Shown here piece by piece: positions 3,231 through 8,575 of a DNA stretch of 42,031 nt (positions are counted from its first letter, which is position 1; every line of letters begins with the position of its first letter). The notes beneath the pieces were generated by a model. That model made no database searches, was not told the DNA's origin, and worked only from the letters and a program-made list of their open reading frames with translations. Both the position numbers and the translations under genes were made by a program. Source of the stretch: Phormidium sp. OSCR. Its GTDB lineage: Bacteria > Cyanobacteriota > Cyanobacteriia > Cyanobacteriales > Geitlerinemataceae. Location: contig LJZT01000032.1 of assembly GCA_001314905.1 (NCBI GenBank), forward strand, positions 1-42,031, written 5' to 3'.

Positions 3231-3539
3231 CTACTTCGTTAGTAGATACTCGTCAGCAGTTTCCCCTTCTTCGAGGGCATCGAGGATCTCATCGAGAGCA
3301 TCTTCATCGACGTTGCCGTACCAGTCGCCCTGGGGATAGACCATGAGGACGGGACCGCGATCGCACATCTTGAGACAGCCCGTGGTGGACACCACCACAT
3401 CTTCTAAATCGCGATCGACCAGTTCATTTTCCAGATACTGGACAAGACTCAAACCGCCTTTCTTGTTACAAGCCCCTTGGGCATCGCCACGGGTGCGGAA
3501 GCCAGCACAGACAAATAAATGATGTTTTGGAGTTTGCAT
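3231..3539 (-). CDS. Thioredoxin-fold [2Fe-2S] ferredoxin of the nif cluster
   Basis: This 102-residue protein belongs to the thioredoxin-like [2Fe-2S] ferredoxin family, typified by the Clostridium pasteurianum 2Fe ferredoxin and Azotobacter Shethna protein I. Cys11, Cys24, Cys55 and Cys59 match the cluster-binding pattern (CAGFRTRGDAQGAC, then TTGCLKMC). It is probably an electron carrier or cofactor-assembly partner for nitrogenase in the cytoplasm; the exact role is not known. The start is the ATG at 3539, preceded by a GGAG ribosome binding site at 3547-3550. The frame is open further upstream, but that part overlaps nifK and is a shadow of it. The gene lies between nifK and nifE in the same direction, a placement seen in anaerobe-type nif clusters. 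Confidence 0.92.
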   Translation of the reverse strand: MQTPKHHLFVCAGFRTRGDAQGACNKKGGLSLVQYLENELVDRDLEDVVVSTTGCLKMCDRGPVLMVYPQGDWYGNVDEDALDEILDALEEGETADEYLLTK

Positions 3540-3571
3540 GATGTTTCTCCAGACGTTTAGGGAGGATGTAG

Positions 3572-3597
3572 GGGGGAAGCGGCCAACGCCGTCCCCC
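3572..3597 (-). other. GC-rich hairpin between nifK and the ferredoxin gene
   Basis: GGGGGA (3572-3577) pairs with TCCCCC (3592-3597), and CGGC (3580-3583) pairs with GCCG (3588-3591) around a CAAC loop, leaving a two-base AG bulge. It occupies the short gap after nifK. No T-run follows, so it looks like a transcript stability or processing hairpin. Confidence 0.55.
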
Positions 3598-3609
3598 GCA
3601 GAGATTGGC

Positions 3610-4983
3610 TTAGAGAACCAACTCAAAGCTTTCATCAGGATCATCACGATCCTTGCGCTCGAGCAGGGTGTTGATGATCGTGCACAGCAGATGTAAACTG
3701 CCGCCGTAGCCCAGGGTGGGGAAGTAGCTATGTCCCACACGGTCGAGGATGGGCCAACCGTAGCGGACAAAGGGGACATCTTCGGCCCGAGCGATATACT
3801 TGCCGTAAACATTGCTGATTAGCAGATCCACCGGCTCTTGTTTCATCAACTGGTGCAGATAGAACAAGTCCTCATTGTCGCGAATCACCGCCTCAGGAAC
3901 GCTCTCGCCGAGAAGTTCCCCACAGCGATCGCGGAAATACTTAGACTCCGCCCCAGTAATGACATAGACCGGTTTCGCGCCGCAGGTGACGAGCATTTCC
4001 ACCAGAGGAACCACCTGATCCGGGTCTCCCGCAATAGCCACCCGTTTCTCATACAGATAGGACTGCATATCGGTCATCACATCCACCAGACGACCGCGAG
4101 CGTTGACAATCTCGTCCGTCGGCTGAGTTCCGGTGACATCCATCAGAGTTTGCACCAGACGGTCCGTAGCGGCTACCCCAATCGGTAAATCGAGGATGTG
4201 ATAGGGAACCTCACACTTGGCTTCCAGGGCGATCGCCGCCTGGGTACTGGCTTCCGGGCCGAGGGCGATCGTTGCCAAACTATCCCCAGTGGTTTTCAGG
4301 GCCTCAACCGTCGTTCCACCCTGAGGATACATTTGAAAATGCCCCGTTTGCGGCGTATCCACCACATCCGACGTATCCGGGAACGTGACCGCATCAATGC
4401 CCCAAGTGGCGAGCATTTTTTTCAATTCGCGAGTGTCTGAAGGTTCAACATAGCCAGGAATCAGATTGACCTGATTACGGGACTCACCACTGCTTTCGGA
4501 GAGATACTTCACCATCGACGCCGTCATATTCGACCAGCCGGTGATGTGACAGCCCACATAACTGGGCGTATTGGCATGAATCACCGTTTTCCCTTCAGGA
4601 ATCACACCACTTTCACGAGCTTCCCGCACAATCGTCGGGATATCATCACCAATCGTTTCCGAGAGACAGGTGGTAGTAACAGCAATCACCGGGGGATCAT
4701 AGAGTTGGTAGATGGTTTTAAAGGCTTGGCGAAGATTCGCGCCGCCGCCGAAGACCGCCGTTCCTTCCGTAAAGGAACTCGTCGCCGCCATAATCGGTTC
4801 CCGGAAATGGCGAGTTAAGTGGGAACGGTGATAGGAACAGCAGCCCTGAGAACCGTGGGAATGAGGCAAACAACCATGAATCCCGAGGGCAGAATACATC
4901 GCGCCGATGGGTTGACAGGTTTTCGCCGGGTTAACCCGTAAGGCTTTACGTTCAACTAAAGTAGTCGGAGTTGCGTCTAACAT
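3610..4983 (-). CDS. nifK: Nitrogenase MoFe protein beta subunit NifK (short, Clostridium type)
   Basis: NifK forms the alpha2-beta2 MoFe protein with NifD and shares the P-cluster that passes electrons to FeMo-co. P-cluster ligands are visible at Cys23 (AKTC), Cys48 (GSQGC) and Cys106 (TTTC), with Ser141 at the position of the Azotobacter beta-Ser188 ligand; the spacing equals that of Azotobacter NifK. The protein has 457 residues and starts MLDATP, lacking the roughly 50-residue N-terminal extension of proteobacterial and ordinary cyanobacterial NifK. In this it resembles Clostridium pasteurianum NifK, whose N-terminus, as remembered, is nearly the same. The ATG at 4983 is chosen for that reason; 44 further open codons upstream are repeat sequence. 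Only a weak AAGAAA-like ribosome binding site is present. Confidence 0.97.
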   Translation of the reverse strand: MLDATPTTLVERKALRVNPAKTCQPIGAMYSALGIHGCLPHSHGSQGCCSYHRSHLTRHFREPIMAATSSFTEGTAVFGGGANLRQAFKTIYQLYDPPVIAVTTTCLSETIGDDIPTIVREARESGVIPEGKTVIHANTPSYVGCHITGWSNMTASMVKYLSESSGESRNQVNLIPGYVEPSDTRELKKMLATWGIDAVTFPDTSDVVDTPQTGHFQMYPQGGTTVEALKTTGDSLATIALGPEASTQAAIALEAKCEVPYHILDLPIGVAATDRLVQTLMDVTGTQPTDEIVNARGRLVDVMTDMQSYLYEKRVAIAGDPDQVVPLVEMLVTCGAKPVYVITGAESKYFRDRCGELLGESVPEAVIRDNEDLFYLHQLMKQEPVDLLISNVYGKYIARAEDVPFVRYGWPILDRVGHSYFPTLGYGGSLHLLCTIINTLLERKDRDDPDESFELVL

Positions 4984-4993
4984 GATTTCTTGG

Positions 4994-5142
4994 GGGAATA
5001 GGGAATAGGGAACAGGGAACAGGGAACAGGGAACAGGGGGAAAGAAGGCAAAAGGCATAACCCACCCCTGGCCCCTCCCAGGAGGGGATGGCAAGAGGCA
5101 AGAGGGGGAACCCACCGCACCTGGTGGGATTCGGGGTGGGTT
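4994..5142. repeat. Composite heptamer/palindrome repeat between nifD and nifK
   Basis: Six heptamers (two GGGAATA, four GGGAACA) run from 4994 to 5035. They are followed by GGCAAAA-type units, a TAACCCACCCC stretch and the palindrome CCCCTCC (5072-5078) / GGAGGGG (5081-5087). Beyond this, CCCACC (5111-5116) can pair with GGTGGG at 5123-5128, or AACCCACC with GGTGGGTT at 5135-5142. The block fills the gap upstream of nifK, ending 11 bases before its start codon. Confidence 0.88.
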
Positions 5143-7247: not shown

Positions 7248-7303
7248 GGGTCTGTTTCGCGTTCTGACGCGACCTCACAGTTGGGGAGAACAAGGACTAG
7301 GGG

Positions 7304-7663
7304 TTAAACGGTGACGGTGGTTTTCACGTCAGCGGCTTCCTTGACTCCGGTACTGATGGTGTAGACCTCTTCGACAGGGCTAACGAAGACTTTGCCGTCA
7401 CCGTAGGCGCCTTCGGTTCCTGTGCGAGCAGCATCGAGGATAATGCCAATGACGGCGTTTTTGTGGCGTTCGTCAATGACGAGAATCAACAGTTCTTTGG
7501 GCAGTTCGTCGTAAACGACGTTGCCGATTTTTAGTCCCCGCTGTTTACCGCGTCCAAAGACATCAATTTTGGTGACGGCGGGATATCCAGCATCGAGCAA
7601 GGCTTGCAAAACATCGGGGGTTTTTTCCGGGCGCACGATCGCCCGTAACATAATGTTAGTCAT
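7304..7663 (-). CDS. nifI1: PII-like nitrogenase regulator NifI1
   Basis: NifI1 is the partner of NifI2 in post-translational nitrogenase switch-off. The protein shows the PII fold: MLRAIVRPEKTPDVLQALLD at the start, a T-loop after DVFGRGKQ, and the B-loop GAYGDGKVFVSPVEEVY. The start is uncertain. The ATG at 7663 (119 residues) is used here; an ATG at 7651 would begin directly at MLRAIVRPEK, which is closer to typical NifI1, and a GTG at 7672 is also possible. No clear ribosome binding site distinguishes them. The gene follows nifH across a terminator-like hairpin and precedes nifI2 by 56 bases, the gene order of anaerobe-type and archaeal nif operons. Confidence 0.92.
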   Translation of the reverse strand: MTNIMLRAIVRPEKTPDVLQALLDAGYPAVTKIDVFGRGKQRGLKIGNVVYDELPKELLILVIDERHKNAVIGIILDAARTGTEGAYGDGKVFVSPVEEVYTISTGVKEAADVKTTVTV

Positions 7664-7680
7664 GATCAGCACATAATAAA

Positions 7681-7707
7681 CAATAAAAGGGGGGAGAGTT
7701 TCCCCCC
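7681..7707 (-). terminator. Terminator-like hairpin between nifH and nifI1
   Basis: GGGGGGA (7689-7695) pairs with TCCCCCC (7701-7707) around a 5-base loop. On the minus strand it is followed by TTTTATTG, the form of a Rho-independent terminator. As nifI1 to nifN follow on the same strand with no obvious new promoter, partial read-through is likely. That would favour nifH transcript over the rest of the operon. Confidence 0.65.
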
Positions 7708-7744
7708 AACGATGTCGGGGGATGAAGGTTGCACAGCCGTCGCT

Positions 7745-8575
7745 TTAGACGGTGGCGTAGAGTCCGAATTCCATGAGCAGGGTTTCTAACTCTTCATTCG
7801 CCAACGGCTTGGGAACCACATGATTGGTGTTTTCATCAATGGCCCGGGCCAAGTTGCGGTAGTGGTTTGCCTGATCTGATTCCGGTGCATATTCAATCAC
7901 CGTCTGGCGGTTCAGTTCAGCGTGTTGAACAATGTTGTCCCGAGGCATGAAGTAAATCATTTGAGTGCCTAGAGATTTCGCCAAGGCGGAGATGAGTTCA
8001 TCTTCCCGGTCCACTTTACGGGAGTTACAAATCAAACCACCGAGGCGCACACCGCCGGTTCCTGCGTATTTCTGAATCCCCCGACAGATGTTGTTGGCGG
8101 CATACATGGCCATCATTTCGCCGGAGGTGACGATGTAGATTTCTTGGGCTTTTCCTTCCCGAATTGGCATGGCAAAGCCACCACAAACCACGTCTCCTAA
8201 GACATCGTAGAAGGCGTAGTCGAGTCCCACTTCTTCATCGTAGGCCCCGAGTTGTTCCAGCATACTGATGGAGGTGATAATCCCCCGTCCAGCACAGCCA
8301 ACTCCGGGTTCAGGACCGCCGGATTCCACACAGAGGGTTTTGCCAAATCCTTCTTTGCGGATATCTTCGAGTTCGACTTCGTCTCCTTCTTCCCGCAGGC
8401 TGTCTAAAACACTCTTCTGGTGCAAGCCTCCGAGTAGGAGACGGGTGGAGTCGGCTTTGGGGTCACAACCGACAATCATGACTTTGCGACCGAGTTCGAC
8501 TAAACCTGCCACGGTGTTTTGTGTGGTGGTGGATTTGCCGATTCCGCCTTTTCCGTAAACAGCAATCTTACGCAT
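7745..8575 (-). CDS. nifH: Nitrogenase iron protein NifH (dinitrogenase reductase)
   Basis: NifH is the homodimeric Fe protein that donates electrons to the MoFe protein with ATP hydrolysis and also takes part in cofactor maturation. In its 276 residues the P-loop GKGGIGKS lies at 8-15. The [4Fe-4S] ligands are Cys94 (GVGCAGRG) and Cys131 (DVVCGGF), and Arg97 is the residue ADP-ribosylated by DraT in some bacteria. No draT or draG is seen here; NifI proteins may do the switching instead. The ATG at 8575 is preceded by a GAGGTT ribosome binding site. Several features, such as [19 protein letters not shown], resemble NifH of anaerobe-type clusters more than typical cyanobacterial NifH. No HIP1 site is present. 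Confidence 0.98.

Follow-up and report, generated by a model that had tools for sequence, protein, structure and literature searches.

The 42,031-nucleotide contig LJZT01000032.1 of the cyanobacterium Phormidium sp. OSCR (assembly GCA_001314905.1), analysed over its whole length on the forward strand and called the window below, carries a nitrogen fixation (nif) gene cluster in which an anaerobe-type nitrogenase stands behind cyanobacterial genes. The genome comprises 4.69 Mb in 187 contigs, with the nif cluster on the window contig. We infer that the host belongs to the Sodalinema group, because PMC12694226 (Kosyakova 2025) assigns strain P-1104 to Sodalinema and cites the identical contig record. 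The relatives with names comprise Phormidium willei BDU 130791, Geitlerinema sp. P-1104 and Phormidium sp. SL48-SHIP.

The genes of the foreign (Desulfobacterota-type) block lie on the minus strand. The iron protein gene nifH (7745..8575; 276 residues) scores 451.2 bits with TIGR01287 (cut-off 394.35) and is of foreign type in a tree of NifH, NifD and NifK (NifHDK). It is followed by genes for two PII-like regulators, nifI1 (7304..7672; Pfam P-II, 78.9 bits, cut-off 25), listed with a GTG start and with alternative ATGs at 7663 and 7651, and nifI2 (6852..7247; 131 residues with a long T-loop region; 71.5 bits, cut-off 25). A preliminary description of this DNA had placed both regulators between nifH and nifD, and they are indeed adjacent genes there. 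Next come the genes for the two chains of the MoFe protein, nifD for the alpha chain (5175..6836; 553 residues; TIGR01282, 686.5 bits, cut-off 653.55; nearest structures PDB 9p1x_A, then 4wes_A and 1mio_A) and nifK for the beta chain (3610..4983; 457 residues; TIGR01286, 434.1 bits, cut-off 427.3). The block continues with a thioredoxin-fold [2Fe-2S] ferredoxin gene of uncertain start (3231..3560), nifE (1787..3136; TIGR01283, 624.8 bits, cut-off 505.1) and nifN (136..1650), the last two being of foreign type, nifE by a tree of NifE and NifN (E+N). The nifN product falls under every model cut-off and is named from its place after nifE and from 50% identity to its counterpart in Nitratidesulfovibrio vulgaris. 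Its start is likely at 1557, because the frame upstream crosses a heptamer repeat.

Three further traits had been listed in the preliminary description. An insertion of about 50 residues was claimed at 404-455 of NifD; an alignment of 12 NifD sequences confirms its presence and size (51 residues, 5448..5600, minus strand) and shifts it slightly, to residues 413-463. The insertion is missing from all five canonical-type NifD in the alignment (four cyanobacterial, one Desulfobacterota). NifK begins MLDATP and lacks the N-terminal extension, just as described; the four canonical cyanobacterial sequences among the 12 NifK aligned carry a long one. The ferredoxin seems to have been named correctly as to kind, while the model scores behind it are weak (Pfam 2Fe-2S_thioredx, 24.8 bits, equal to the cut-off; NCBIfam fdxn_Clost, 92.5 against a cut-off of 150), so that its name, like that of nifN, comes through homology and position. 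Gene maps were made by scanning 47 loci. In 8 of 14 Desulfobacterota stretches no match of this ferredoxin type was seen after nifK.

Upstream of nifH, and also on the minus strand, stand genes of another origin. These are nifU (9017..9931; TIGR02000, 399.3 bits, cut-off 273.3) and nifS (10093..11304; TIGR03402, 607.3 bits, cut-off 530.75), both of native cyanobacterial type in a tree of NifS and NifU (S+U), and nifB' (11351..11740; PF02579, 72.7 bits), a stand-alone C-terminal Nitro_FeMo-Co domain that remains of the native nifB. Gene order and trees agree that this is a hybrid cluster, in which a Desulfobacterota-type block lies behind native nifB'-nifS-nifU and replaces the native nifHDKEN. 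The transferred cluster of the preliminary description therefore holds as a foreign block, although here it is not free-standing and is joined to the native genes. The full order nifB'-S-U-H-I1-I2-D-K-fdx-E recurs in 12 loci from five genera, with nifN next in 11, and two more loci have the hybrid order, one ending at nifE (L064) and one with a truncated nifI1 (L107). Hybrid NifS and NifU are 63-67% and 55-62% identical to those of the 12 canonical clusters, against 52.6% and 44.9% for Rahnella, and no match to either was found in any of the 14 Desulfobacterota stretches. The 15 hybrid rows of the S+U tree stand with cyanobacteria; hybrid and canonical proteins are nonetheless well apart (100/100, branch 0.20; branch support is given throughout as the Shimodaira-Hasegawa-like approximate likelihood ratio test and ultrafast bootstrap, SH-aLRT/UFBoot). 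The full nifB of hybrid clusters is of Desulfobacterota type, while the leftover nifB' domain is cyanobacterial. Set beside a canonical cyanobacterial cluster, then, the locus agrees in the type of nifS and nifU and departs from it in nifHDKEN. NifW (PF03206) was found in none of 14 genomes with the hybrid alone and in all 13 with a canonical cluster.

Where did the foreign block come from? The NifHDK tree has 45 rows (18 foreign-type cyanobacterial, 12 canonical cyanobacterial, 14 Desulfobacterota, 1 Clostridia). All 18 foreign-type clusters form one clade (99.9/100), which stands with Desulfobacterota and is split at 100/100 from the 12 canonical rows. A position inside the main cyanobacterial clade had been named beforehand as the result that would speak against transfer; these proteins fall on the Desulfobacterota side of the split. 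The same foreign-type clade appears in a tree of NifI1 plus NifI2 (17 of 31 rows, 96.8/95) and in the E+N tree (16 of 29 rows, 100/100; made without canonical rows and without L112, L114, L124 and L064, where the query had matched paralogues). Foreign-type NifHDK, NifI and NifEN from eight cyanobacterial genera are thus one group within Desulfobacterota, which supports the earlier claim that an anaerobe-type nitrogenase was transferred into an oxygenic phototroph. The nearest NifHDK rows are N. vulgaris, G821 and G835, and because their support is 98.8/89 the trees do not fix the exact donor; Desulfonatronovibrionaceae are proposed in PMC12694226. A separate donor for the Sodalinema nifB, suggested by identities to N. 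vulgaris of 57-58% versus 45-46%, was rejected as an artefact of split matches, and all hybrid NifB group together in a 40-row tree built from a Sodalinema query.

Several cyanobacterial lineages could have taken up desulfo-type nif genes from Desulfobacterota independently. The patchy presence of the block across eight families would suit such a history, and the data in PMC12694226, by its own account, cannot separate one event from several. Against it, the foreign-type rows are a single clade in each of the three gene sets just described, none of the 14 tested Desulfobacterota loci nests inside that clade, and the same nifB'-S-U join with the same truncated nifB occurs in 14 loci from five genera. 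We regard repeated uptake as very unlikely.

The foreign type of the genes might also raise the suspicion that the nif contig is a contaminant from an anaerobe, an explanation to which we give next to no credence. The highly iterated palindrome HIP1 (GCGATCGC) occurs at 80 sites throughout the window versus 0.68 expected, and cyanobacterial nifS and nifU share the contig. The cluster is present in all seven genomes of the genus, including single-contig ones, and rpoB lies on the same contig as the cluster in G603 and G595. The HIP1 sites, together with arrays of AGGGAAC-type heptamers (1-97, 1564-1649, 4994-5038 and 9953-10089, the last three within the nif cluster), also bear out the cyanobacterial surroundings noted earlier; the open frames of nifN and nifK run through such arrays upstream of their likely starts. 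A HIP1-free interval of 4.8 kb (4229-9056), matched in 92 of 20,000 random placements, was considered as a mark of foreign DNA and discarded, for canonical nifH-nifD is HIP1-free in six of six clusters. The gap reflects the nifH-nifD genes, not their origin.

The hybrid is thinly scattered. Of 386 genomes sampled across the phylum, 6 have a relative of NifI2 (E up to 1e-20), and these come from 3 of 142 genera. Closer to home, all six further genomes of the genus have NifI2 at 97-98% identity; in seven genomes from other genera of the family the matches are GlnB-like, at about 38-46%. Within the order, foreign-type NifD (71-100% identity; next best 49%) was found in 18 of 388 genomes, from eight genera and eight families. 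Canonical NifD is found in genomes of seven of these families as well, and four genomes carry both types. Could the hybrid go back to an ancestor shared by the order, with vertical descent from then on and loss from most lineages? The retention of both cluster types in four genomes would fit, as would the HIP1-rich NifK, NifE and NifN stretches of Sodalinema, which point to long residence. However, the foreign block of eight representatives, one from each of eight genera, rejects the RpoB topology (approximately unbiased test, p-AU 2.3e-5), and a presence of 18 in 388, in families that contain canonical or nif-less relatives too, would require many losses. We consider ancestral presence unlikely. 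The likeliest history, we infer, is a single entry from Desulfobacterota into a cyanobacterium, after which the finished hybrid spread among cyanobacterial families. Some observations weigh against such a spread or blunt the case for it: nifB', nifS and nifU of six genera do not significantly reject the RpoB topology (p-AU 0.063), which is also what vertical inheritance would predict; RpoB is a single gene with some weak nodes; and NifHDK and RpoB distances are uncorrelated in 104 hybrid pairs (-0.11) and in 65 canonical pairs (-0.09) alike, a comparison that is uninformative.

What is the leftover nifB' domain doing in this cluster? In a 27-row domain tree it groups with the C-terminal domains of canonical cyanobacterial NifB (96.2/98). 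It goes neither with NifX nor with foreign NifB, and the identification of nifB' as NifX was rejected on that ground. Among the 15 loci with nifS, 14 have nifB' as an open frame; the remaining one (L019) lacks the nifS start as well. A single truncation of the native nifB would account for the common layout, from which we draw it, and not from the short-domain tree, in which the 14 nifB' sequences form no clade of their own. Within six Sodalinema the ratio of nonsynonymous to synonymous substitution rates (dN/dS) of nifB' is 0.146 (0.074-0.202 over 15 pairs), a sequence signature of purifying selection, so that the domain looks used. In all seven Sodalinema genomes it is the sole Nitro_FeMo-Co match outside nifB, and it may work like NifX. 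PMC12694226 treats nifB' as possibly non-functional and offers the absence of nifX and nifW as a reason for the lack of growth on N2. Our finding for NifW agrees with that account; a NifX-like domain, however, is present in the form of nifB'. Going further, nifB' could be a stand-alone carrier of the iron-molybdenum cofactor (FeMo-co) or its NifB-co precursor that replaces NifX for foreign NifB, NifE, NifN and NifDK, within a machine that includes the NifI switch, was built once and spread to at least eight families. We advance this combined proposal tentatively, as somewhat short of probable.

The identity of the two PII-like proteins is clear. Their best matches among solved structures are chain H of 9p1x for NifI1 and chain G for NifI2. 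In a 68-row PII tree NifI1 (31 rows, 99.7/100) and NifI2 (31 rows, 98.6/100) are separate groups, apart from four cyanobacterial GlnB and two other PII rows. Grouping with GlnB had been set beforehand as the outcome that would tell against a NifI assignment, and the window proteins group with NifI. Of the residues invariant in 14 non-cyanobacterial relatives, NifI1 keeps 31 of 33 (both changes being between I and V) and NifI2 keeps 27 of 27. Across seven Sodalinema, dN/dS is 0.092 for NifI1 and 0.076 for NifI2, near the values for NifH (0.058), NifD (0.050) and NifK (0.067). In Methanococcus maripaludis, NifI1-NifI2 reportedly binds NifDK at low 2-oxoglutarate and is released by 2-oxoglutarate and ATP. 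Judging from conserved sequence and gene order, NifI1 and NifI2 are probably an ammonium off-switch in a Sodalinema-type host as well.

Alternatively, the NifI proteins may be passengers that provide no ammonium switch in cyanobacteria, control being exercised at transcription, through NtcA. A number of findings detract from the switch, several of which favour this alternative. GlnB from this genome retains 21 of the 33 and 20 of the 27 invariant residues, so most of these are general PII residues. NifI is altered or damaged in three foreign-type genera: G550 has an intact nifI2 gene but a nifI1 shortened to about 36 residues (L107, 10319-10853), and invariant NifI2 residues are lost in G550, G595, G603 and G635 (24 of 27 kept) and in G561 (25 of 27). 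Searches of the open-licence literature turned up no data on binding, switch-off or expression of NifI in any cyanobacterium, and PMC5061849 (Grim and Dick 2016) describes NifI regulation as not studied in cyanobacteria. An NtcA-like palindrome, GTA-N8-TAC, lies 59 bases upstream of the listed nifB' start (11786..11799, minus strand), and in five of six Sodalinema loci it occurs 59-69 bases upstream of nifB'. On the other hand, the retained invariant residues and the low dN/dS of both proteins argue against mere passengers, and six of seven Sodalinema loci lack the exact NtcA site within 450 bases upstream of nifH. We therefore think it unlikely that the two proteins are passengers. As a separate matter, the five loci L107-L111 (G550, G603, G595, G635 and G561; three genera) read VRVSSG or VRVSNG in NifI2 at a stretch that is VRVRTG-like in most others and presumably close to the nucleotide site.

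Elsewhere the palindrome is sporadic. Its exact form was found upstream of nifB' in none of eight loci of other genera; upstream of nifH it occurs in one of seven Sodalinema loci, in all three of g44 and in the one of g148. Across the window it is not enriched (2 found versus 2.98 expected). Between nifU and the foreign block lies a terminator-like hairpin with a T run (8905..8942, minus strand; 10-bp perfect stem, 10-base loop), which a standard terminator scan missed because its loop is longer than the scan permits. All six of the Sodalinema loci inspected have it, with changes in both arms of the stem, and the same strict search did not find it in five hybrid loci of other genera. With the hairpin between them, nifB'SU and the foreign block of Sodalinema probably form two transcription units.

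Divergent from nifB' is nifV, for homocitrate synthase (12346..13605, plus strand; PF00682, 271.6 bits, and PF22617), with 54-59% identity to most cyanobacterial nifV from places beyond the genus. Beyond nifV, a TOBE-domain protein (by Pfam) and molybdate ABC transporter-like genes (the latter by eye only) occupy 13665-17896. The full nifB was not found in three of the seven Sodalinema assemblies (this genome, G008 and G009), and in G007 it is broken into two frames (C1:4703278-4704521) with a stop in each match. In the present genome an assembly gap is likelier than loss, because the contig ends within an AGGGAAC array. Decayed remnants of the foreign cluster were also seen. In G445 what is left of it is nifK, the ferredoxin gene and the part of nifD from residue 110 onward (L112, 7195-10483), together with a canonical cluster (L117), and G595 has foreign nifN in four pieces (L109, 2409-4951), again alongside a canonical cluster (L115). 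In Spirulina sp. CS-785/01 (L019, 4686-7891) nifS lacks its start, nifB' is absent, nifU residues 1-78 run into nifH 194-273 and nifD ends at 244; these deletion-like junctions may be assembly faults.

Taken as a whole, we hold with considerable confidence that this is a hybrid nif cluster, one that most likely derives from a single Desulfobacterota entry and then spread, with native NifS and NifU, foreign NifB, NifE and NifN, and a NifI pair expected to switch NifDK. In such a machine NifS and NifU would provide Fe-S clusters, foreign NifB, NifE and NifN would assemble FeMo-co, and NifH with NifDK would make ammonia as other molybdenum nitrogenases do. When ammonium rises and 2-oxoglutarate falls, a NifI1-NifI2 complex would bind to NifDK and cut off its electron supply from NifH, to be released by 2-oxoglutarate and ATP. 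The NifI switch in a cyanobacterial host and the retained nifB' are, in our view, the main points of interest. An anaerobe-kind nitrogenase in oxygen producers poses the question of the native parts on which a foreign nitrogenase depends, and also whether an anaerobe PII-type switch works where GlnB and NtcA too read 2-oxoglutarate. Natural variants are at hand in the truncated nifI1 of G550, the four genomes with both cluster types and the decayed remnants, and the retained nifB' domain offers a direct and cheap test of the role of a NifX-like protein.

How does the hybrid compare with known systems? Plasmid NC_008741.1 of N. vulgaris DP4 has a like order (nifH-PII-PII-nifD-nifK-(2Fe-2S) ferredoxin-nifE-nifN-radical SAM nifB), and its NifD is 63% identical to that of the window; it differs in having no nifB'-nifS-nifU in front and in an opposite and unlike nifV (37%). 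PDB 9p1x, which contains NifD, NifK and two PII-family chains, is the best match for window NifI1, NifI2 and NifD, by sequence comparison only. For Geitlerinema sp. PCC 9228, PMC5061849 reports what looks like a single operon of nifXSU, iscA, nifHI1I2DK, fdxN and nifENB. What is called nifX there, a small gene ahead of nifS, is nifB' here. The same source lists nifI1I2 in Pleurocapsa 7327, M. chthonoplastes and Phormidium OSCR. Transfer was, according to citing papers, first reported in Microcoleus (Coleofasciculus) chthonoplastes by Bolhuis 2010, which PMC12694226 and PMC5061849 follow; the preliminary description was right to mention a similar cluster in that species. Closest of all are the clusters of Sodalinema sp. 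P-1104 and other Sodalinema and Coleofasciculus in PMC12694226, which gives a like order, nifVB'SU-H-I1-I2-D-K-Fd-E(-N-B), names desulfo-type NifHDK, nifI1,2 and truncated nifB' as in the window, and records acetylene reduction under light/dark cycles by the sister strain P-1104. The Sodalinema transfer, nifI1,2 included, was already published there; the finding of a transferred anaerobe-type nitrogenase is correct and has good support, and for this genus it is not new. What is added here is the five-genus junction, the spread over 18 of 388 genomes with its RpoB conflict, the selection on nifB' and the conservation of NifI residues. On the choice between one transfer and several, left open in PMC12694226, the present wider sample points to one entry.

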